From contig JADGRA010000052.1 in assembly GCA_017881265.1 (NCBI GenBank), positions 1 through 61,847 of the forward strand: 61,847 nucleotides of DNA, read 5' to 3'. Shown here one piece after another: positions 985-14,518 of the stretch (positions are counted from its first letter, which is position 1; the number at the start of each line of letters is the position of its first letter). Origin of the DNA: Myxococcaceae bacterium. Its GTDB lineage: Bacteria; Myxococcota; Myxococcia; Myxococcales; Myxococcaceae. The translations under genes and the position numbers were made by a program. The notes beneath the pieces are model-generated. The model saw only the letters and a program-made list of their open reading frames with translations. It had not been told where the DNA came from and made no database searches.

Positions 985-1932
985 CTAGCGCGGCCCACCC
1001 TTCACGTCGCCAGGCTGCGGCTGCGGCGTGGCATTCAGCTTGGCGCGCAGCGCCAGGCCGGCGGTGGTTTGTCGCAGCTGCACCAGCGAGCGCACGTAGT
1101 AGGCGAGGGCCCACACGTCGCTCGTCTTCTCCGGCAGGACGTTGGGGTCCCAGGCCGGCATCGCCGCACCGGTGACTCCGGCCACCAGCAGCCGGTAGAG
1201 GTCCGCCAGCTGCGTCTCGTCGCGCGGGGACTTGATGGTGTTCACCAGGAAGTCCGGCGGCAGCAACTGCACCTTGTAGCCGTAGGCCGTGTAGTCGCTG
1301 TCCTTCAGCTCCGGCTGGTACATGTGCGGACGGAATTCCGTCGTGGGCTTTTGGGAGAGCTGCTGGGAAGCGGCGCTGATTTCCTCCGGACTCGCATAGG
1401 CCGGGTGGCACGTCAGGCACTGCGTGTACCCGTGGTACAGCAGCTTGCCCCGGGCGATGGCGGCGGATTCCTTGCCCACCCACGGGTCCGGAGCCGGCAC
1501 TACCGGCTCACCCACCGCGTCATCGTCCTTCCAGGCGTCCGAGAAGGTCTTGATGTACTGGATGATGGTGGTCAGCTTCTCGTCCGGGACCTCCCAGCCG
1601 ACCATTGCCGAGCCGTGTAGGTTGCTTCTGACGATGCGAACCAGGTCCTCGTCCCGAGGAAGCTTCTGGTCGAGCACCCAGCCGAACTTGAACTCGCCCT
1701 GGGTGAAGTTCCGCGGCGGCGGGCGCAGGCCGATGGCGGCCGGGCCCTCGCCGTTCCCCTGGTCCCCGTGACAGGCGCGGCAGTACTGCAGGTAGGCCAC
1801 CTGGCCCTCGTTGAGGACCTCCGCGGACACGGTCTTGCCGGCGAGCTTCCGTGGCGCCGTGAAGGCAGTCCCTTCTCGTTTACAGCCGGAAAGCACGACG
1901 ACGGAAGCGAGTGCGAAGTAGAGGCAGCGCAC
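985..1932 (-). CDS. Dihaem cytochrome c lipoprotein
   Basis: A 315-residue exported cytochrome with two CxxCH haem c sites: CRACH (about residues 51-55) and CLTCH (about 172-176). The N-terminus ends in LSGC, a lipobox with Cys17, so the protein is probably tethered to a membrane on the periplasmic side. The GTG start at 1932 is chosen because AGAGAGG lies just upstream and the signal sequence begins there. It follows the second subunit III gene by 11 bp. It shares a YIKTFS segment between its haem domains with the cytochrome at 6280-7065, so the two look like paralogues. It probably delivers electrons to the CuA subunit. Subunit II has no fused cytochrome domain, so a separate donor is needed. 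Confidence 0.88.
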   Translation of the reverse strand: MRCLYFALASVVVLSGCKREGTAFTAPRKLAGKTVSAEVLNEGQVAYLQYCRACHGDQGNGEGPAAIGLRPPPRNFTQGEFKFGWVLDQKLPRDEDLVRIVRSNLHGSAMVGWEVPDEKLTTIIQYIKTFSDAWKDDDAVGEPVVPAPDPWVGKESAAIARGKLLYHGYTQCLTCHPAYASPEEISAASQQLSQKPTTEFRPHMYQPELKDSDYTAYGYKVQLLPPDFLVNTIKSPRDETQLADLYRLLVAGVTGAAMPAWDPNVLPEKTSDVWALAYYVRSLVQLRQTTAGLALRAKLNATPQPQPGDVKGGPR

Positions 1933-1943
1933 GGTGGACCTCT

Positions 1944-2546
1944 CTAGACGACGAAGATGAGCAGGTACATGGTCAGCCAGACCACGCCCACGAAGTGCCA
2001 GTACATCACCCACAGCCTGAGGCGGTTGTTCCGCGCCGCGTTCAACGTCCCACCGAGAACTGCCGGTAGGAGGAGACCCAAGCCCAAGAGCCCAACCACG
2101 ACGTGCAGCGCGTGAAAGCCGGTGAGGCCGTAGACCACCGCAGCCAGCGAGCCGTCCTCGAGCGCGAGGCCGGACTTGAACAGAGACGTCCACAGCACCA
2201 CCTGGAGTGCCACGAAGACCGCGCCGAGCAGGGTGCCCTCCAAGAGGCCCGCGACGACTCGCGACTTCGCACCGCGACGCGCGGCGCTAAGCGCCCGCTG
2301 CAAAACGAGCGCATTGAGCGCGAGCACCCCGGTGTTGACCGCCGGCAGAAGCTGCGGCAGCGGGGGTGTGCCCGGCGGCGGCCACGTGGCCTGGCGGAAG
2401 CGGAGCACCCCGTAGGAGAAGAAGAGCGAGGCGAACATCATCGCCCAGCTGCCCAGGAAAATGAACATCCCGAGCCACGCGGTGTCCTCTCCGCGCGCCG
2501 CTGCCGGGCGGTAGGGGATGACGTCCCGCGTGGCAGCCACGCTCAC
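1944..2546 (-). CDS. Cytochrome c oxidase subunit III (second copy)
   Basis: A 200-residue polytopic membrane protein of the heme-copper oxidase subunit III family, with about five hydrophobic helices. The signature segments FHALHV and MYWHFVGVVW (near residues 145 and 182) match the family, where the C-terminal WHFVD-like motif is typical. The GTG start overlaps the TGA of subunit I (GTGA). Subunit III does not carry redox centres; it stabilises subunit I and the proton uptake path. A second, different subunit III is encoded at 5654-6280 in the same operon, so this copy may form an alternative complex or a double set. Confidence 0.9.
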   Translation of the reverse strand: MSVAATRDVIPYRPAAARGEDTAWLGMFIFLGSWAMMFASLFFSYGVLRFRQATWPPPGTPPLPQLLPAVNTGVLALNALVLQRALSAARRGAKSRVVAGLLEGTLLGAVFVALQVVLWTSLFKSGLALEDGSLAAVVYGLTGFHALHVVVGLLGLGLLLPAVLGGTLNAARNNRLRLWVMYWHFVGVVWLTMYLLIFVV

Positions 2547-4345
2547 CTTGCTCCTTGAGCCATCCGAGCGGCGCCGGGCTCCTCCGCGACCACCTCGGCC
2601 TGGCCCACCCAGTCCCGCCCAAGCCGACGCACGAGTTCCGGATTGGAGAGCTCATGCGGGCCACGTTGGACGATGGGAATCGCGTCGTAGTTGTGGACCG
2701 GCGCTGGCGACGTAATCGACCACTCCAGCGTGCCCACCTGCCACGGGTTGGCCTCGGCCTTCTTGCCGATGTACATGCTGGACAGGAAGTTCCAGATGAA
2801 GATGGCCTGCGCGAAGAAGAGGACGAAGGCGAAGTAGCTGGTCCACTGGTTCAACCCGTGGAGCGGCTTGAAGATGTCATAGGCATACGGGTTCCAGAGC
2901 CGGCGGTTCTGGCCGGCGTAGCCGACCAGCAGCTGCCCGGTGAAGACGGCCGTGATGCCGACAGCGCTGAACCAGAAGTGAATCTTCCCGAGGGTGGTGT
3001 TCATCATTCGCCCGAACATCTTCGGGTACCAGAAATACAGCCCCGCGATGCTCGCCATGAACGACGCAGCGGCCATCGTGAAGTGGAAATGGCCGACGAC
3101 GAACATGGTGTCGTGCAGGTAGATGTCGGGGGTCGCGGCACCGAGGTACAGGCCGGTGAGCCCGCCCAAGCCGAACACGAAGACCATCCCGAGGGCAAAG
3201 AGCATCGGGACGGTGAGCCGGATGGAGCCCTTGTAGATGGTGCGCAGCCAGTTGAGGAACAGCACCTCGGCCGGGATGCTGATGATGAGCGTCAGCGTGG
3301 TGAACCCCTGCCCCAGCATCGGGTTCATGCCCGTCTGAAACATGTGATGGCCATAGACCACCGCGCTGAGGATGGTGACCGCACTCATCGCCAGCACGGT
3401 GCCCTTGTACCAGTGGGCAGGCTTCCGGGCGAAGAAGGCGAGGAGGTCGGCGGCGATGCCCCAGGCCGGGAGGATGAGGATGTAAACCTCCGGGTGGCCG
3501 AAAATCCAGAAGAGGTGCTGAAAGAGGATGGGGTCACCACCGCCCTTCACCGCAGCCGCTCCGGCGATGAAGAACTGCGTGCCGAACAGTCGGTCCATGA
3601 GCAACAGTAGCGCGCCCGCGCCCAGCACCGGGATGAAGAGCACGTTGAGGATGGCGGTCAGGAACTGGCCCCACACCGTGAGGGGCATGCGCATGTACGT
3701 CATTCCCGGGGCACGCAGCCGGATGACCGTCGTGACGTAGTTGATGCCGCCCATGATGGAGGCGACCCCGGTGACGAAGACGGCCGCCACCATCAGGGTC
3801 TGCCCGGTGCCCGGGGTGCCGATGTTGGTCGACAGCGGCGGGTAGGTCGTCCACCCCGCGCCGGCCGCCCCGAGGTCTCCGAAGAAGGCACCGATGACCA
3901 GGCACTGGCTCAGCGCGAACACCCAGAACGAGAGCGCATTGAGCCAGGGGAATGCCATGTCCCGCGCGCCAATCATGAGCGGGATGCAGAAGTTGCCGAA
4001 CGCGCCGATGAGGACCGGCGTGATGGCAAAGAAAATCATGATGAGCCCATGCATGGTGAAAATCTGCATGTAGAGCCCCGGGCCAATGACCCCGCCCGAG
4101 CTGCGGAGCACCGTCGGCCCCAGAATGGGCACCGGCTGACCGGGGAACGCCCATTGCCAGCGAATCATCATCGCCAGCGTGCCTCCGACGAGGAGGAAGA
4201 GTAGGCCAGCCCACAGGTACTGCTTGCCGATGGTCTTGTGGTCCAGCGACCAGATGTATTTGCTCCAAAACGTCGTTGGCGGCGCGTGAATCGGCTGCAG
4301 CGCCTCGATGACCTGGCGGTTGAAGGTGGCTTCCTGTGCAGTCAT
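2543..4345 (-). CDS. ctaD: Cytochrome c oxidase subunit I
   Basis: The catalytic subunit of an aa3-type heme-copper oxidase, 600 residues with twelve or more hydrophobic helices. It binds haem a and the haem a3-CuB centre and reduces oxygen to water while pumping protons. GHPEVY carries the His-Tyr cross-link pair and the Glu typical of the A1 subfamily. YGHHMF gives the CuB histidine pair, and VGHFHF holds the His ligands of both haems. The ATG at 4345 overlaps the TGA of subunit II (ATGA), which decides this start over one 12 codons upstream. The gene lies in the order II-I-III, as in many proteobacterial operons. Confidence 0.97.
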   Translation of the reverse strand: MTAQEATFNRQVIEALQPIHAPPTTFWSKYIWSLDHKTIGKQYLWAGLLFLLVGGTLAMMIRWQWAFPGQPVPILGPTVLRSSGGVIGPGLYMQIFTMHGLIMIFFAITPVLIGAFGNFCIPLMIGARDMAFPWLNALSFWVFALSQCLVIGAFFGDLGAAGAGWTTYPPLSTNIGTPGTGQTLMVAAVFVTGVASIMGGINYVTTVIRLRAPGMTYMRMPLTVWGQFLTAILNVLFIPVLGAGALLLLMDRLFGTQFFIAGAAAVKGGGDPILFQHLFWIFGHPEVYILILPAWGIAADLLAFFARKPAHWYKGTVLAMSAVTILSAVVYGHHMFQTGMNPMLGQGFTTLTLIISIPAEVLFLNWLRTIYKGSIRLTVPMLFALGMVFVFGLGGLTGLYLGAATPDIYLHDTMFVVGHFHFTMAAASFMASIAGLYFWYPKMFGRMMNTTLGKIHFWFSAVGITAVFTGQLLVGYAGQNRRLWNPYAYDIFKPLHGLNQWTSYFAFVLFFAQAIFIWNFLSSMYIGKKAEANPWQVGTLEWSITSPAPVHNYDAIPIVQRGPHELSNPELVRRLGRDWVGQAEVVAEEPGAARMAQGAR

Positions 4346-5142
4346 TCGATCCTCGAGTGCTCGGCCCAGTCCCAACCCCAATGGGCTTCCATGTCCTTGG
4401 AGTCGAAGGCGCGAGTGGCATTGACGGATGTGACTTGCGCCCAGCGGTCATATTCGGCCTTCGGGAGCACGGTCACGGTTCCGCGCATTTTGTAGTGGTT
4501 GGCTCCGCAGTGCTGCGAACAGACAATCTCGAAGACGCCTGTCTCCTTCGCCTGAAACCACATCCGGGTCACCGTCCCCGGAACGGCGTCGACCATCATC
4601 CGCAGGTTGGGGATTTTGAAGCTGTGGATGACGTCGGTGGAGGTGATTTGGAAGATGACCGGCGCCCCCTGCGGCACGACGATGTCGTTGAGGACGACGA
4701 TGTCGTCAGCCGTGTTGAACGTTCCATCCGGGCCAGCGTAGCGCGCGTTCCAGGCCCACTGATGGGCGTTGACCTCGATGCGGACGGCGCCCGGCTTCGC
4801 CTCGGCACCCTTGAAGTCAAAGAAGGTTCCCCACATGAACTCCGTGCTGTGGACGAGCAGGGGCCCGTCGACGACGATGAAGATGAGGGCCGCAATGAGG
4901 GCCGTCCAGCGCCAGGACTTGAAGTCCGCGCCGTCCTCGAAGACCGCCTTGTGGGTCGGGCCATTCATGAACACCGACCACAGCATCCACACCACGGTCA
5001 TGATGAACAGAATGACGACGAAGACGGTCGTTTCCGTGATGGTCTCGTCGATTTTCCAGCCAAACTCGGACGCATCGTGAAGGAGGTTAACCGGTTCGAA
5101 CGGGCCCGAGAACAAGAGCGCGAGGCAGTTGAGGGAGTGCAT
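4342..5142 (-). CDS. ctaC: Cytochrome c oxidase subunit II (CuA)
   Basis: A 266-residue subunit with two N-terminal transmembrane helices and a periplasmic cupredoxin domain. The dinuclear CuA site is plain: CSQHC followed by GANHYKM gives the two Cys, His and Met, and the earlier His lies in DVIHSF. The aromatic patch used for electron entry (WAWNARY) is present. There is no C-terminal cytochrome c domain, so this is an aa3-type and not a caa3-type subunit. The start ATG at 5142 is preceded by GGAGG. Electrons arrive here from one of the two dihaem cytochromes encoded in the operon and pass to haem a in subunit I. Confidence 0.96.
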   Translation of the reverse strand: MHSLNCLALLFSGPFEPVNLLHDASEFGWKIDETITETTVFVVILFIMTVVWMLWSVFMNGPTHKAVFEDGADFKSWRWTALIAALIFIVVDGPLLVHSTEFMWGTFFDFKGAEAKPGAVRIEVNAHQWAWNARYAGPDGTFNTADDIVVLNDIVVPQGAPVIFQITSTDVIHSFKIPNLRMMVDAVPGTVTRMWFQAKETGVFEIVCSQHCGANHYKMRGTVTVLPKAEYDRWAQVTSVNATRAFDSKDMEAHWGWDWAEHSRIE

Positions 5143-5167
5143 CTGTTGGGCAACCTCCGGCCGGCAG

Positions 5168-5314
5168 TTATGCCAGGCGCCGCACGAAACGAATGACCAC
5201 CGCCGACACGACCCAGGGAACTGCGAGCATGAAGGGAAGGAGCCACGCGATGCGCGAGGCCTGGGCCTCCGCACACATGGGGCAAGCGAGCAGCTGCAGG
5301 CAGAGCAGCGTCAC
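5168..5314 (-). CDS. CPMC-motif membrane microprotein in cox operon
   Basis: A 48-residue protein. The GTG start at 5314 overlaps the TGA of the subunit IV gene (GTGA), and the gene ends 25 bp before subunit II. The N-terminal hydrophobic stretch ends in LACPMC (Cys11 and Cys14), followed by a short polar part and one transmembrane helix (about residues 22-42) with a basic end. I recall small CPMC proteins of similar plan beside oxidase genes in other phyla, but cannot confirm this here. A CxxC pair with a Met between is a plausible copper(I) site or redox pair, so a role in CuA or CuB loading is possible. That is inference. Confidence 0.6.
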   Translation of the reverse strand: MTLLCLQLLACPMCAEAQASRIAWLLPFMLAVPWVVSAVVIRFVRRLA

Positions 5315-5643
5315 TTCGAGACCACCCAGCCGAGCGCCCGCCACGCGGCATCCGCGCACAGGATGACCGTGTAGAAGGCGGCAATGATGAGCGGGATGGC
5401 CACCAGCTTCTTCATGGTGGCCGTCTCGCCTCCCAGCCCCATCGCGACCAGCGCGAAATACGCGGCCTGGGCGATGGCCAGCACGAAGAGCCCGACGGTG
5501 ACCAGCCCGTGCCCTCCGTTGGACATGGCCACCGCCACTTCCAGGCCGGTGAGGACGACGAGCACGCCGAGGACCACCCACGTCTGCGTGGGCGTCATGT
5601 GGTGCCCCGAAGAAGGCTCGACCGAGTGTGCTTCAGCGCTCAC
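5311..5643 (-). CDS. Cytochrome c oxidase subunit IV
   Basis: A 110-residue protein with a His/Ser-rich N-terminus and three transmembrane helices, matching the small prokaryotic subunit IV (COX4 prokaryotic type) in size and plan. The GTG start at 5643 is preceded by GGAG at good spacing and lies 10 bp after the subunit III stop, so the longer frame reaching back to 5697 is not used. It is a structural subunit without cofactors that is thought to help assembly of the subunit I core. It overlaps the CPMC microprotein by 4 bp, indicating translational coupling. Confidence 0.85.
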   Translation of the reverse strand: MSAEAHSVEPSSGHHMTPTQTWVVLGVLVVLTGLEVAVAMSNGGHGLVTVGLFVLAIAQAAYFALVAMGLGGETATMKKLVAIPLIIAAFYTVILCADAAWRALGWVVSK

Positions 5644-5653
5644 GTTGGCTCCG

Positions 5654-6280
5654 CTACGGAATGAGGTAGACGCAGACGAAGACGATGTTCCAGACAAAGT
5701 CGACGAAGTGCCAGAACAGTCCCGCCAGCTCGACTTCGTTGCCGCTCACCGCCGTACGGGAGTTCCGGTAAAGGGTGATGAGCAGGTAGATGACGCCTGC
5801 CGTGACGTGAGCGCCGTGGAACCCGGTGATGACGTAGAAGGTGTTGGCGTAGGCGGTCTGGCCGAAGACCAGACCTTCCTTCATCAACCCGGGGTGCCAG
5901 ATGCCAATCCACTCCTGGTACTGGCCGACGAGGAACAGCAACCCGAGGCCGGCGGTGATGAGGAGCCAGCGGCTGGTGCCGCCGCGGTTGCCCGCCGAGG
6001 CGGCGTCGTAGGCCCGGATGATGGTCACGCTGGAGACGGCCAGCACCAGGGTGAGCATCGCCGTGAACGGGATGTTGAGTGACGGTTCCCCCGGGTGGTG
6101 CCACACCGTGCTCTCGGCCCGGAGAATGCCGTAGCCGAGTAGCAACCCGGCGAAGGTGAGCCAGTCCGAGAGCAGGAAAATCCACATCGCCAGCTTGGCG
6201 GGGCGGACGTTGCCCAGCATTCGGTCCGGCGGCCAGGCGACCGCAGGCCCGTGGGCGTGGGCGGGGGCGGGGGTGCTCAT
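5654..6280 (-). CDS. ctaE: Cytochrome c oxidase subunit III (first copy)
   Basis: A 208-residue polytopic subunit III with about five helices. FYVITGFHGAHV and LFWHFVDFVW are the family's conserved segments. The N-terminus is rich in His, Ala and Pro (AHAHG), which could weakly bind metal. Its ATG overlaps the TGA of the upstream cytochrome c gene as TGATG. It precedes subunit IV by 10 bp. This copy is only distantly similar to the one at 1944-2546, so the duplication is old or the two came from different operons. Confidence 0.92.
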   Translation of the reverse strand: MSTPAPAHAHGPAVAWPPDRMLGNVRPAKLAMWIFLLSDWLTFAGLLLGYGILRAESTVWHHPGEPSLNIPFTAMLTLVLAVSSVTIIRAYDAASAGNRGGTSRWLLITAGLGLLFLVGQYQEWIGIWHPGLMKEGLVFGQTAYANTFYVITGFHGAHVTAGVIYLLITLYRNSRTAVSGNEVELAGLFWHFVDFVWNIVFVCVYLIP

Positions 6281-7065
6281 CAGTAATGCTCCGCGATGGG
6301 GTATTCGGTATTGGGCGGCAGCAACAGGCTGTTGACGTAGTGGACGAGGTCCCAGGCGTCCTGCTGGCTGATGCTGTCACCGAAGGACGGCATCGGGCTC
6401 CCGCTGACGCCGGTCATGAACGTGCGGTAGAGGTCCACGTTAGTCGCTCCGCACTTGCGCTTGTCACTGGCCGTGAAGTTGAACGGTTGGTCGGGGAATC
6501 CCCAGTCGTCGCGGAGCGTGGGTGCGGAGGCGCCGTTGCCCTTGCCCTCCGGGCCGTGACACTTCTCGCATTGGTTGTTTTTCCAGATGCTCTTGCCCCG
6601 CTTCACGGACGCTTCATCGTTTGGCGGCTCCGGCGGAATCACGATGGGCGTTCCCGGCGCCTCCTCCTTCCACTTCGGCGAGAAGGTCTTGATGTACTCG
6701 ATGACCGCGTAGAGCTGCGCGTCCCCCAACACGGCCCATGCCGGCATGTAGGTATGGTAGAAGCCGATTTTCAAGGTGCGCAGCAGGTCCGCGTTGGTCG
6801 GCAGCGTGCCGCTGGGCGTCGAGCGGCACTTGAAGATGCCGGACGTGAAGTCCCGCGGACGCGGCTCGAGCCATTGAGCCGAGTAGCCCCGGCCATCGCC
6901 GAGCGCGCCGTGGCAGGACACGCACCAGCGCCCATACACGCCCTCCCCTTTCTTGGCGAGGCCCTCGTCGATGGGCACTGGCTTGTCGTCCGCAGACGCT
7001 GCGGCAGGAAGGACCAGCTGTGCGAGGCAGAGGAAGACCGCGAGCACTGGACGGTGTGTTGTCAT
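6280..7065 (-). CDS. Periplasmic dihaem cytochrome c
   Basis: A 261-residue protein with a cleavable signal peptide (hydrophobic to about residue 23, then ASADD) and two haem c sites, CVSCH (about 48-52) and CEKCH (about 166-170). MPAW and MPSF supply likely axial Met ligands. ATG at 7065 follows an AGAGAGGA ribosome site. The two-domain layout resembles c4-type dihaem cytochromes, and it shares a YIKTFSP segment with the lipoprotein cytochrome at 985-1932. It lies 13 bp downstream of the haem-barrel gene and directly before the oxidase subunits, so it probably shuttles electrons across the periplasm between the outer membrane and the CuA site. Confidence 0.9.
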   Translation of the reverse strand: MTTHRPVLAVFLCLAQLVLPAAASADDKPVPIDEGLAKKGEGVYGRWCVSCHGALGDGRGYSAQWLEPRPRDFTSGIFKCRSTPSGTLPTNADLLRTLKIGFYHTYMPAWAVLGDAQLYAVIEYIKTFSPKWKEEAPGTPIVIPPEPPNDEASVKRGKSIWKNNQCEKCHGPEGKGNGASAPTLRDDWGFPDQPFNFTASDKRKCGATNVDLYRTFMTGVSGSPMPSFGDSISQQDAWDLVHYVNSLLLPPNTEYPIAEHY

Positions 7066-7078
7066 CGTGGAGTCCTCT

Positions 7079-8458
7079 CTAGTAGGCAAAGTCAACGGCG
7101 AGGAGGAGCGTGCTGCCCAGCGGCGGACCGACCCCGGACGGCAACCCGGCGACGGTGGTCGCCGCCTGGCTGAATTCAGCGTGGAGTGCGACGCCTGCCC
7201 GGCTGGAGAGCGCCACGTAGTAGCGCACGAGGGCGACCCAGGAATCGAAGCTGCCTTCGGCATGGGAGTAGTCGAGCGAGCCCTGCTGGAGCGTGACGAT
7301 GCGCTCGTACTTGAAGGCAAACGTCCACTCCGGGCTAGGCGTGTAGCTCAGCTCGGCGAATCCGCCGAACCAGCTCGCGTTCACGGTGGGGGTTCCGTTC
7401 GCATTTTGCCCGGGGACTCCGGTGGTTCCGGAGATGAGCGCCGCGCTGTCGTTGCCGTAGTAGACCACCCCGTCCAGCGTCAGCGGGTTGACCGCGCTCA
7501 GGAACTGGAAGTGCAGCTCGCCGCCGATGCGGTAGTAGTTCGCGAGGCTGTAGCCGGTCCCGCTGACCGGCGCACCCCCCGCCGTGAGGAACTTGGTGGG
7601 CTGCCAGCCGACCGCACCGAAGATGCCCGGTTGAATCGACGCGAGGAAGTCGCCGCCCGTGAGCCAGAAGTACTCAAGGTGCGCCCACACGTTGGGATTA
7701 CTAACGACGTTGGCCGACCACAGGGACTGTCCGGATTCGTTGTTGAGGAGGATGGAGTAGCGGAGGTTGCTCAACTCGTCGTGCCCATAGAACTCGAGGC
7801 CACCGGTGTTGTCGCCGGGAGCGAACGTGACGGCGCTCCCCATCGCCTGGAAGTGGTAAACTTGGTACCCGACGGTGAGGAAGTAGATGCGGTGCTCGTC
7901 GACCGGCAGGTCCGGCGCCATCTTCCCGACGCGGATGTTGGCGTAGGGCGTGCCAAACAGTCGGGTGAAGCCGATCCAGGCGGATTCGAGGTCGCTGCCG
8001 TCGAGCGAAGGCGCCGTGAAGAAGCCGGAACTCGCCAGCCCCGGCGTGAAGACCACCAGGAAGTTAATCTGCTCCCCCAGCGTTCCGGCCGTGAGAATGT
8101 CCAGTCCGGTGAAGCCAAAGGTGCCCGTCTCGGTGGTGGCCAGCCCGTTGGGGTTCGACGGCGTCGGGTCCACCGGGACGAGGGTTTGGTTCGTGTACTG
8201 GAAGCCCACCGTGGTCCGGAAAGCGATGGGCCAGTAGGCGCCGTTCTGGGTGACGGGGTTGTCCCGTTCCCGGTTCATCCGGAAGCCATTGTCCCGGAAG
8301 TTCACGCCGAACTGGTTCAGCCGCGGCCAGTTGGTGTGGCAGGCAGAACAGGCGACGCCATATTTTCGCGCGAACGCCGGGATGGCGTGGGCGGACGTCG
8401 GCAAGAGAATCGCTCCCACTGCAAGCAAGACGGCAACGAGTGTGAATCGGCGTCCCAT
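7079..8458 (-). CDS. Outer-membrane cytochrome-porin fusion, Cyc2-like architecture
   Basis: A 459-residue exported protein. After a signal peptide (cleavage near SAHA, residue 24) comes an IPAFAR segment and one haem site CSACH (Cys37, Cys40, His41) followed by PRLNQFG. The rest is made of alternating amphipathic strands rich in Tyr, Gly and Asn that end in an aromatic residue (FAY), as in an outer-membrane beta-barrel. A small haem domain on a barrel is the plan of Cyc2, the outer-membrane iron oxidase, and the ARK-CxxCH-LxxFG spacing resembles that family. Many barrels of this kind have no known function, so the substrate is not established. The gene is the first of the tightly spaced oxidase run. 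Confidence 0.78.
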   Translation of the reverse strand: MGRRFTLVAVLLAVGAILLPTSAHAIPAFARKYGVACSACHTNWPRLNQFGVNFRDNGFRMNRERDNPVTQNGAYWPIAFRTTVGFQYTNQTLVPVDPTPSNPNGLATTETGTFGFTGLDILTAGTLGEQINFLVVFTPGLASSGFFTAPSLDGSDLESAWIGFTRLFGTPYANIRVGKMAPDLPVDEHRIYFLTVGYQVYHFQAMGSAVTFAPGDNTGGLEFYGHDELSNLRYSILLNNESGQSLWSANVVSNPNVWAHLEYFWLTGGDFLASIQPGIFGAVGWQPTKFLTAGGAPVSGTGYSLANYYRIGGELHFQFLSAVNPLTLDGVVYYGNDSAALISGTTGVPGQNANGTPTVNASWFGGFAELSYTPSPEWTFAFKYERIVTLQQGSLDYSHAEGSFDSWVALVRYYVALSSRAGVALHAEFSQAATTVAGLPSGVGPPLGSTLLLAVDFAY

Positions 8459-8605: not shown

Positions 8606-9169
8606 CTACCGCGCTTGGGGAAAGTTAAGCAGCAGCGTCAGCTGGGACACGAGGCGGTCGACGGCCTCCGGCGCTTCGATGCCTTCGATGCCCCGCACCC
8701 GGCCCTCGCGGTCCACCAGGGCCACCGCGCCACCGGCCTCCAACATGGCACCCCGGCTGAGCACCAGCGCCCCCACCTCCGCCAACAGGCGGCGCGCATC
8801 CGGGCCGGTGGCGGTGTGCCACTGGCGCGGATTGGCGTGGCGCCGCGTCATCTCGCCCGTCACGTCCACCACCAGCGTGGCCGCAGGCACCGCGACTTCC
8901 AGCATGGCTACAGCCGGCCCGACGTTGCGGATGCGGTATTGCAGCTTCTCCAGGGCGCCTCCCAGCCGTTCCGCGCAGCTGATGCAGCCCATGTCGACGA
9001 AGCCCAGAAGCCAGACGCGGCCGGCCAGGGCCGCGTTGTCCAGCCGCTCGCCGCCCGGCTCCGTGAGCGAGAAGGGCGGCAGCGTCCCGAGCGCCTCGGG
9101 AACGGCGGGCGGGTGGCGCAGGAGGCCTGAGACGAACGGCCAGCCCGCCAGCACCCCCACCGCCACCAC
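8606..9169 (-). CDS. SCO/thioredoxin-fold copper chaperone-like protein
   Basis: A 187-residue protein with one N-terminal transmembrane anchor and a periplasmic thioredoxin fold of the SCO1/SenC type. Strand-like segments PFSLTEPGG and VWLLGFVDM lead into the Cys pair CISC (Cys62, Cys65), and a conserved-looking His lies further on (His111 or His118). Classical SCO proteins have CxxxC, whereas here it is CxxC. SCO proteins deliver copper to, or reduce, the CuA site of oxidase subunit II, which fits the neighbourhood. No ATG lies upstream in frame; GTG at 9169 is the first usable start, but the frame stays open back to the cupredoxin stop, so the N-terminus is uncertain. Confidence 0.72.
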   Translation of the reverse strand: MVAVGVLAGWPFVSGLLRHPPAVPEALGTLPPFSLTEPGGERLDNAALAGRVWLLGFVDMGCISCAERLGGALEKLQYRIRNVGPAVAMLEVAVPAATLVVDVTGEMTRRHANPRQWHTATGPDARRLLAEVGALVLSRGAMLEAGGAVALVDREGRVRGIEGIEAPEAVDRLVSQLTLLLNFPQAR

Positions 9170-9268: not shown

Positions 9269-9967
9269 CTACTTAATCTTCGCCGAGTAGGTGGCCTTCT
9301 CCCCGGCCTTCACCGTGATGGGGCCGCTCTTCGGGCTGCCCACCTCGTGGAAGACGGCAATCTCGTAGGTCCCCGGGGGGATGTCCTTAATCTCGAAGGT
9401 CCCGTCCTTGCCTGTCAGCGCGGCATAGGGGTTGTCGGCGGTGAAGATGGCGCCGCGCATGAAGTTGTGGATGTCGCACTTGAGCGTCATCCCACCGGCC
9501 TTGGTGATTTTCTTGGGGATGACCATCCCCTGCTTCGGCTCCGCCAGGTTGATGACCGTGCTGGTGCCCAAGTAGGAGTGAATGTTGTGAAGAATGGGGT
9601 CGCTGTTCTTCACCTGAAGCTCCGAGTTCTTCGCGATGATTTGGACGTGGGGCACGTAGTGGCAGCCCTTCTGGTCGACCACCGGCTGAGCCGGGAAATC
9701 CATCTTCTTCCCACTCTTGATGTCCACCAGGTAGACGACGACGTTCTCCACCGCGCCGTCCGCAGCGATGGACCATGAGTCCTCAACTCGAGTCGCCCCG
9801 CACGTCCCCGGGTCCTGGGTGATGGTGATGGTGGCCGGCTTGGGAGGCGTGCCGTCGTAGGTGACTTTCCCCGAGATGCTCCCGCCGTTGGTGACCGGCG
9901 CCTCGGCGTATTGGGCCCAGGCCACCGAGGAACAGAGGACCACTCCCAGCGCGCTCAGAATCCGCAT
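9269..9967 (-). CDS. Cupredoxin-like periplasmic protein
   Basis: A 232-residue exported protein: signal peptide to about residue 18 (SSVAWA), then a strand-rich body. PILHNIH (His127) and CDIHNFM (Cys164, His167, Met170) give the His-Cys-His-Met set of a type 1 copper site, with a very compact C-x2-H-x2-M loop. The end (DGTFEIKDIPPGTYEI) looks like a carboxypeptidase-regulatory/CNA-B strand motif. ATG at 9967 follows AGGAG, ahead of the signal peptide. It sits upstream of the SCO-like gene and the cytochrome-oxidase run, on the same strand. A role as a soluble electron carrier to or from the cytochromes is inferred; a copper store or sensor is also possible. Confidence 0.7.
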   Translation of the reverse strand: MRILSALGVVLCSSVAWAQYAEAPVTNGGSISGKVTYDGTPPKPATITITQDPGTCGATRVEDSWSIAADGAVENVVVYLVDIKSGKKMDFPAQPVVDQKGCHYVPHVQIIAKNSELQVKNSDPILHNIHSYLGTSTVINLAEPKQGMVIPKKITKAGGMTLKCDIHNFMRGAIFTADNPYAALTGKDGTFEIKDIPPGTYEIAVFHEVGSPKSGPITVKAGEKATYSAKIK

Positions 9968-13138: not shown

Positions 13139-14518
13139 TCAGGCCTTCACCGAGACGGTGAGGCGCACCGTCTTGTGGACCTGCGCCGGAGCGAAGGCCT
13201 TGGCCAGGAAGAAGTCGACGTCGAAGACGCCCGGGTTGCGCGGTGTGAAGAAGAATTCCCGGACACCCGGCCCGCTCTGGGAGGGGTGAAAGACGGCCTC
13301 GCGCAACCCCACCCGCTTGGCGACGGTGGGTTCAATGGCCCACATATGCCCGGTGCGTTCGGGGAGCGTGACGCTGAGGCCGCTGTTCATCTTCACTTCC
13401 AGGGGACCGTCGACGTCGTTGCCGTTCACCTTGAGGACGTCGAGGTTGTCGCGCGAGACACTGCGCAGCTCGTGGGGCCGCAACTCGACCGCTTCCACCG
13501 CAACGCGGCCACCCCACCCTGACGTCTTGTCCATCACCCCGGAGACCTGCACCTGGTGCCCGATGGACTTGCGCATCGACTTCCCGAGCTTGCCCTCGAG
13601 GAGGAAGGACACCTGCTGGCGCGTGCCCCCGTTGGAGACCACCAGCACATACGCGTCGCCGGTCATCTCCAGGGCGCCCCGCAGCGTGGCAAAGCCGCGC
13701 ATGCCCGCCCCCATGCCGGGGTTGGAGACCTGCTCCAGTTCACCCGGCGAGAGGTAGCTCAGCTTCATCGGCGCCGGGGCGGGCTCGACGCCCTCCGCCT
13801 CCGGCTTTTTCGCCGAGTACTTCCGCACGTCCACCGTGCCGCCGTAGTTGTGCGTCTTCTTGATGAGGCCGGTCACGCTGACCTTGTGGTCCACGTAGGC
13901 CGGAAGCACCTCCTGGTCCGGCCCCTGAAGCAGGAACACCAGCTCGCGCTTGTCGCGACCGACGACATGCAGGCAGGGCAACCCGTCCTTCACCACCAGG
14001 CGGCCCTTGAGGCTTCCCTCACCGGTGACGCCGCGGCCGGCAGCCGCGGTCAGAATTTGCTCCATCTCCCGACGGGTGAGGGACTCGCCCACGGGAGGCA
14101 GCTTGGTGGCGCGCGGGCGCTGGCGCTCCGGTAGGCGCACCGGTGCGGCCGCCGGCGCACCCTTCGCCGGCGCACCCTTGGGCGGCGTACCCTTGGGCGG
14201 CGTACCCTTGGGCGGCGTACCCTTCGCCGGCGCACCCTTGGGCGGCGTACCCTTGGCCGGCGCACCCTTGGGCGGCGTACCCTTGGCCGGCGCACCCTTG
14301 GCCGGCGCACCCTTGGCCGGCGCACCCTTGGCCGGCGCGGGCTTGGCCGGCGCACCCTTGGCCGGCGCGGGCTTGGCCGCCGCCCGCAGACGCGCGACCG
14401 CGGTCGCTACCTTCCGCGAGGCGCTCTTCAAGAGTCCAACTTTGCTGGAGGGTTTCTTGGGCGGGGTCTTTACGGGACGCTTCTTCGCCCTGGCCCCAGT
14501 CCTAGCCTTCGACGTCAC
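13139..14518 (-). CDS. Ala/Pro/Lys repeat protein with duplicated domain and chagasin-like end
   Basis: A 459-residue protein in four parts. Residues 1-50 are Lys/Ala-rich, resembling histone H1 tails. About 50-125 is a run of PAKGA and PPKGT pentapeptides. Two similar domains follow (about 165-240 and 270-350), each with a LKGRL or LRGAL strand, a LVFLL or VSFLL strand, and a HKVSVTG or HQVQVSG strand plus a YGG or WGG turn, suggesting an internal duplication of an OB-like fold. The last 100 residues resemble the chagasin (inhibitor I42) beta fold ([22 protein letters not shown]). There is no signal peptide. The GTG start is preceded by AGGAGG at 6-bp spacing. Function unknown; DNA or RNA binding by the tail is a guess. 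Confidence 0.7.
14154..14375. repeat. 15-bp tandem repeat (minisatellite) inside coding sequence
   Basis: About fifteen imperfect copies of a 15-bp unit, with the plus strand reading GGCGCACCCTTGGCC or GGCGTACCCTTGGGC. The unit length is a multiple of three, so gain or loss of copies keeps the frame and only changes the number of PAKGA or PPKGT pentapeptides in the minus-strand protein. Copies differ by a few third-position and first-position changes, so the array has been stable enough to diverge. Confidence 0.9.

Follow-up and report, generated by a model that had tools for sequence, protein, structure and literature searches.

The window (the whole 61,847-nt stretch of DNA analysed) contains a run of genes, all on the minus strand, in the order cupredoxin, thioredoxin-like protein, CYC2L, dihaem cytochrome c, coxIII, coxIV, coxB, coxA, second coxIII and second dihaem cytochrome c. 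Spacing within the run ranges from overlaps of a few bases to gaps of up to 147 bp. CYC2L (7079..8458) starts with an ATG at 8458, has a stop codon ending at 7079, and encodes a Cyc2-like fused monohaem cytochrome-porin of 459 aa, as judged from its translation, the Keffer motif, an AlphaFold2 model, a fold search and conservation. The dihaem cytochrome c gene lies 16 bp beyond CYC2L and overlaps coxIII by 1 bp. The original prediction had CYC2L leading the oxidase run. It does lie directly ahead of the oxidase genes, but two co-directional genes, for the cupredoxin and the thioredoxin-like protein, come before it with gaps of 99 and 147 bp, and the transcript may begin ahead of CYC2L.

Carriers and oxidase encoded alongside CYC2L

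The oxidase genes encode subunit III (5654..6280; Pfam COX3), subunit IV (5311..5616; COX4_pro), subunit II with an intact CuA motif, CSQHCGANHYKM (4342..5184; COX2, CoxB NCBIfam and the motif itself), subunit I of the aa3 type (2543..4381; COX1, CtaD_CoxA) and a second subunit III-like protein (1944..2546; COX3). The run closes with a second dihaem cytochrome c that has a lipoprotein-like N-terminus (985..2007; Cytochrome_CBB3) and is matched in position in two related loci, L040 and L042. Starts of the genes for subunits IV, II and I and for this second cytochrome are uncertain. Because the genome contains only two COX1 genes by genome count, the aa3 oxidase of the window is a second, separate oxidase. 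The other COX1 locus (contig C56) lies next to alternative complex III genes and has none of the four cupredoxin genes found in the genome (below), and we rejected the idea that every cox cluster of the genome includes one. Elsewhere in the window, a minus-strand gene at 13139-14518 carries an N-terminal tandem repeat (window positions 14050-14400).

The first gene of the run, CUP (9269..9967), encodes a 232-aa protein whose type-1 cupredoxin domain sits within a carboxypeptidase-regulatory-like fold (Pfam CarboxypepD_reg, AlphaFold2 model, fold matches). In the model (pLDDT 88.5), residues 92-177 match plastocyanin and amicyanin with Z scores of 10-11, and the remainder matches carboxypeptidase-regulatory-like domains. 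The ligands H127, C164, H167 and M170 are invariant in 11 homologues, and the C-x2-H-x2-M spacing is that of amicyanin. A cupredoxin fold with conserved His, Cys, His and Met identifies CUP as a type-1 cupredoxin. Four cupredoxins of this type were found in the genome, two of them beside its two Cyc2-like genes. The thioredoxin-like protein encoded next (8606..9169) is of the SCO/TlpA type and has a CISC motif; its homologues adjoin the relatives of CYC2L in L027, L042 and L051. A role in copper or thiol maintenance is probable from sequence, although the assignment is weak (TlpA match, E 0.06).

The dihaem cytochrome c gene adjacent to CYC2L (6280..7062; two CXXCH, Pfam Cytochrome_CBB3/Cytochrom_C) is the most constant neighbour of CYC2L in its relatives. 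Its product finds its best PDB match in chain B of 6h5l, over the full length (E 1.8e-52), and a sequence comparison against PDB returned no cytochrome c4 entry up to E 0.01. By this comparison it is not recognisably a c4 cytochrome like Cyc1, and we dropped that idea. We take 6h5l chain B to be Kuenenia Kustc0458, and its partner in the solved complex to be a hydroxylamine-oxidoreductase-like protein. The 6h5l structure comes from another enzyme complex, so dihaem cytochromes of this family may serve more generally as partners in the periplasm; unlike in the 6h5l setting, the gene in the window sits between those for a Cyc2-like port and an oxidase.

Haem site, predicted barrel and place in the Cyc2 family

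CYC2L comprises a signal peptide (residues 1-25), a haem domain (26-78) and a 16-strand barrel (79-458). Read by eye, the signal peptide is cut between SAHA and IPAF, which gives a mature N-terminus of IPAFARKYGVACSACHTNWPRLNQFG. The sole CXXCH of the protein, CSACH, occupies residues 37-41 (8336..8350, minus strand; direct reading and pattern listing) and begins at residue 12 of the predicted mature protein, as expected from the earlier claim of a single haem site less than 20 residues from the mature N-terminus. No family in Pfam or NCBIfam covers CYC2L, and no PDB entry matches it in sequence. Full-length homologues with 27-51% identity exist in other genomes, however, and hence CYC2L is not a chance open reading frame.

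Cyc2 has been defined as a protein of at least 365 aa with a CXXCH near the N-terminus, AXPXFAR[Q/K][T/Y] upstream of it and PXL downstream (Keffer et al. 2021, PMC8406198). CYC2L, at 459 aa and with a single N-terminal CXXCH, shows these sequence features, and its haem region, AIPAFARKY-GVA-CSACH-TNW-PRL, reproduces the Cyc2 signature exactly and with equal spacing, the first A being the last residue of the signal peptide. CSACH is invariant across the 19-member clade to which CYC2L belongs, and its AXPXFAR[Q/K][T/Y]/PXL setting is conserved throughout. Conservation in CYC2L is highest in the haem domain, where 20 of 54 positions are conserved at 89% or above. The signal peptide, the single N-terminal CXXCH in the AXPXFAR[Q/K][T/Y]...PXL context and a length of >365 aa are common to CYC2L and to A. 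ferrooxidans Cyc2, Mariprofundus Cyc2PV-1 and Leptospirillum Cyt572.

The AlphaFold2 model of CYC2L, built on 13 homologues (mean pLDDT 74), places sixteen strands within residues 79-458, and the C-terminal residue of the protein is aromatic (...LLLAVDFAY); a long barrel-like part with such an end had been anticipated. Short and long connections alternate in the manner of porins, the longest (residues 181-217) joining strands 5 and 6. By VIA-align, the model superposes on OprO (4rjw; Z 23.7, 319 residues, 3.4 A) and OprP (2o4v; Z 23.4), which share the top tie with other closed 16-strand porins, so the structure prediction proposed as a check returned the 16-strand barrel. OprO and OprP are also the templates reported for Cyc2PV-1 (PMC8406198), and a C-terminally fused 16-strand porin of the OprO/OprP type is a predicted feature that CYC2L has in common with the Cyc2 family. 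The haem domain, which the original prediction required to sit at the barrel mouth, was modelled at pLDDT below 50, and its place there is at most presumed. In the barrel part, the charged residues R81, E158, D183, R190, R233, E369, R412, R420 and E428 are conserved and may line the pore or keep the haem domain in place. With every testable published sequence feature present and a 16-strand porin predicted, the reading of CYC2L as a Cyc2-like cytochrome-porin is supported. To the extent that its anatomy and context indicate, CYC2L would work like a Cyc2 port.

Contrary to the original prediction, the fused plan is not rare: 1,593 Cyc2 homologues were published in 2021 (PMC8406198), and 75 of 396 Acidobacteriota genomes match the Cyc2-like profile, most over the haem domain alone. 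The published homology criterion for the family is a blastp match at 1e-5 to a Cyc2 of one of the three clusters. In a set of 12 sequences, E values of CYC2L against cluster-2-type homologues, among them one from an A. ferrooxidans plasmid, were 1e-6 to 4e-10; these matches are much weaker in the full database, and the queries were other than the paper's own. A profile comparison between the CYC2L clade and the clade with the Acidithiobacillus ferrooxidans plasmid homologue gave a probability of 98.6% (E 1.1e-15) over an alignment of ∼120 columns that spans only the haem domain and first strands. This match argues for common ancestry of the two clades, although the CYC2L barrel is too divergent from the A. 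ferrooxidans type to be aligned. In a maximum-likelihood tree of 74 Cyc2-like proteins (quick method), CYC2L fell in a 5-row clade (support 100) within a 19-row clade (97), and plasmid homologues from Acidithiobacillus, Caballeronia, Paraburkholderia, Ideonella and Methylocystis formed a separate clade (100) on a long stem. All references in the tree are cluster-2-type sequences, with no cluster 1 or 3 sequence (Mariprofundus, Leptospirillum) among the rows. By sequence, CYC2L is a divergent Cyc2 homologue outside the Acidithiobacillus/Burkholderia-type (cluster-2-type) clade, in a tree that lacks clusters 1 and 3.

Full-length homologues of CYC2L occur within the order of the window and in metagenome-assembled genomes (MAGs) labelled Deltaproteobacteria, Myxococcales, Acidobacteria, Proteobacteria and Verrucomicrobia, as well as in a few Acidobacteriota genomes. 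Distribution is patchy: in the window's own family, a distant full-length copy occurs in just one other genome (G010). A scan of named genomes with the single CYC2L protein gave no match, and relatives were found with an alignment query. Plasmid records contain cluster-2-type Cyc2 but no relative of CYC2L or of its paralogue (below). An Acidobacteria MAG (L046) and a Verrucomicrobia MAG (L054) have near-identical Cyc2-like proteins and neighbours, and because the two loci are nearly the same, the Verrucomicrobia label may be a binning or labelling error. One Acidobacteriota Cyc2-like gene (L136:9121-10671) has a TAG stop after the haem domain and represents either a pseudogene or an assembly error.

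Linkage in relatives and the alternative complex III paralogue

In Myxococcota and Acidobacteriota alike, a dihaem cytochrome c gene adjoins the CYC2L homologue in nearly every locus of the clade that has flanking sequence; the exceptions are L131, which is without one, and G010, which has another dihaem type. Most loci also have a cupredoxin gene nearby. Genes for aa3 oxidase of one type lie within 10 kb of CYC2L or its homologue in the window, L027, L040 and L042, and a second aa3 type, with CoxA ∼40% identical to that of the window, lies within 10 kb in L128 and L129. In L047, cbb3 genes (CcoN and a FixO-cytochrome fusion) take the place of aa3, an exchange that is expected if the oxidase is simply an electron sink. 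In total, 7 of 19 clade loci are oxidase-linked, far above chance if 1-3% of positions drawn at random have an oxidase nearby. One caveat here is that the loci are related and hence non-independent, so this figure is only indicative. Within about 8-10 kb, L026 and L028 have the dihaem cytochrome c gene and neither oxidase nor cupredoxin genes, and the sister group (L031, L132-L135) has no dihaem cytochrome c, cupredoxin or oxidase neighbours of this kind.

Two Acidobacteriota loci, L128 and L129, carry on one strand the genes for the Cyc2-like protein, dihaem cytochrome c, cupredoxin, coxB, coxA, coxIII and coxIII, which is the order of the A. ferrooxidans rus operon. The run in the window resembles that operon in having Cyc2-like, dihaem cytochrome c, cupredoxin and aa3 oxidase genes together and co-directional, but its order differs, with the cupredoxin gene first and the thioredoxin-like gene between it and CYC2L. 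The carriers differ as well: by sequence comparison, the dihaem cytochrome resembles 6h5l chain B rather than c4, and the cupredoxin is amicyanin-like and lies inside a carboxypeptidase-regulatory-like domain. No rusticyanin gene was recognised in the run.

Another genome, G065, holds two pairs of CYC2L-type and dihaem cytochrome c genes ∼14 kb apart (L138:6261-8416, contig C205). The first pair has a full cox run (L042), the second has none, and a cupredoxin gene lies between them.

The second Cyc2-like gene in the genome of the window (L033:1142-10052; contig C20, about 19.1-28.1 kb) heads a co-directional run in which it is followed by genes for a cupredoxin and for ActA, ActB, ActC, ActD, ActE and ActF of alternative complex III. 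This order recurs in three other genomes of the order (L032, L038, L039). The paralogue may be the quinone-linked counterpart of the oxidase-linked CYC2L. Cyc2 and alternative complex III are likewise found together in the neutrophilic iron oxidisers Ferriphaselus, Sideroxydans and Mariprofundus. There, in the publications consulted, the link consists of co-occurrence and expression, whereas here the genes directly adjoin, with the cupredoxin gene between, in four genomes of the order. Sideroxydans upregulates its alternative complex III with Fe(II), and a function of the complex in reverse electron transfer has been proposed (PMC8788666).

Proposed electron path, likely donor and alternatives

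The linkage of CYC2L to genes for a dihaem cytochrome c, a cupredoxin and a terminal oxidase is conserved and points to the uptake of electrons for respiration, by which the host bacterium may deliver electrons from an extracellular source to oxygen. We regard an inward conduit, from an extracellular donor to oxygen, as probable. The inward direction is suggested by the linkage of CYC2L to an oxidase, which is an electron acceptor. A small reduced donor, most likely dissolved Fe(II), would enter the 16-strand outer-membrane porin and reach the single c-type haem of the N-terminal domain, presumably near the periplasmic end of the pore. From there, electrons would pass in the periplasm to the dihaem cytochrome c, the cupredoxin or both, and on to CuA of the aa3 oxidase that the run encodes, and this enzyme would reduce oxygen. 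The pairing of a dihaem cytochrome c with a cupredoxin has precedent in A. ferrooxidans, where AcoP, a cupredoxin copurifying with the oxidase, receives electrons from cytochrome c4 (PMC5982212).

The complete statement, in which the inward conduit to oxygen takes Fe(II) as its donor, is one we lean towards with more reserve. In each of the three published Cyc2 clusters, one characterised member oxidises Fe(II) (PMC8406198), and this, together with the rus-like setting, makes Fe(II) the likeliest donor. The authors who defined the family call the function of its divergent homologues uncertain and an open question (PMC8406198), and an iron-oxidase function of CYC2L does not follow from homology alone. 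The same inward conduit could instead serve Mn(II), Cu(I), an organic or quinone shuttle in its reduced form, or a surface that acts like an electrode, which we consider rather unlikely. In the Manganitrophaceae, which oxidise Mn(II), Cyc2 is likewise regarded as a candidate (PMC9040806), the CYC2L clade is distant from all characterised members, and the adjacent carriers are uninformative on the donor. Against this, all three characterised relatives are Fe(II) oxidases (PMC8406198) and, for Mn(II), the potential is high and the known Mn oxidisers also carry porin-multihaem complexes.

Two further explanations dispense with electron intake. CYC2L could be a sensor or a porin for metal handling or protection against copper, and could accompany copper enzymes (oxidase, cupredoxin), as the adjoining SCO/TlpA-type protein and cupredoxin and a P-type ATPase near the relative in L047 might suggest; this is improbable, given that the most constant neighbour of CYC2L is a dihaem cytochrome c, that all contexts seen place it with electron carriers (cbb3 among them and, in the case of the paralogue, alternative complex III) and that the cupredoxin retains the full type-1 electron-transfer ligand set. 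Release of respiratory-chain electrons through CYC2L to extracellular acceptors would fit the link of the paralogue to alternative complex III, which usually acts as a quinol oxidase. Such release is more improbable still, because CYC2L and its homologues at six further loci of the clade are linked to terminal oxidases, enzymes that take up electrons and cannot donate them, and alternative complex III itself rises with Fe(II) and is proposed to operate in reverse in Sideroxydans (PMC8788666).

To our knowledge, the order of the window is not known for iron oxidation, and the same holds for the lineages that carry the CYC2L linkage. If the conduit is inward and fed by Fe(II), common soil heterotrophs would join the organisms with iron-fed aerobic respiration, and the marker could then be this gene set instead of cyc2 by itself. 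No gene for a RuBisCO large subunit was found in the genome, which makes Calvin-cycle autotrophy unlikely; the system probably supplements heterotrophy. In a limited literature collection, we found no publication describing the CYC2L arrangement in Myxococcota or Acidobacteriota.

Taken jointly, these data allow a broader reading, which we put forward tentatively and on balance doubt. Soil and groundwater Myxococcota and Acidobacteriota would carry an aerobic iron-respiration unit that parallels the rus operon with partly other carriers, namely a dihaem cytochrome c of the 6h5l type and a cupredoxin embedded in a carboxypeptidase-regulatory-like fold. Together with the Cyc2-like port, the cupredoxin would form an exchangeable head on two aa3 types, on cbb3 and, through the paralogue, on alternative complex III, giving one organism an oxygen branch and a quinone-pool branch.

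Four Acidobacteriota loci (L140, L141, L142 and L136) have a Cyc2-like gene with an adjacent cupredoxin gene and, ∼4-6 kb away, a gene for an eight-haem cytochrome, a possible further partner complex.
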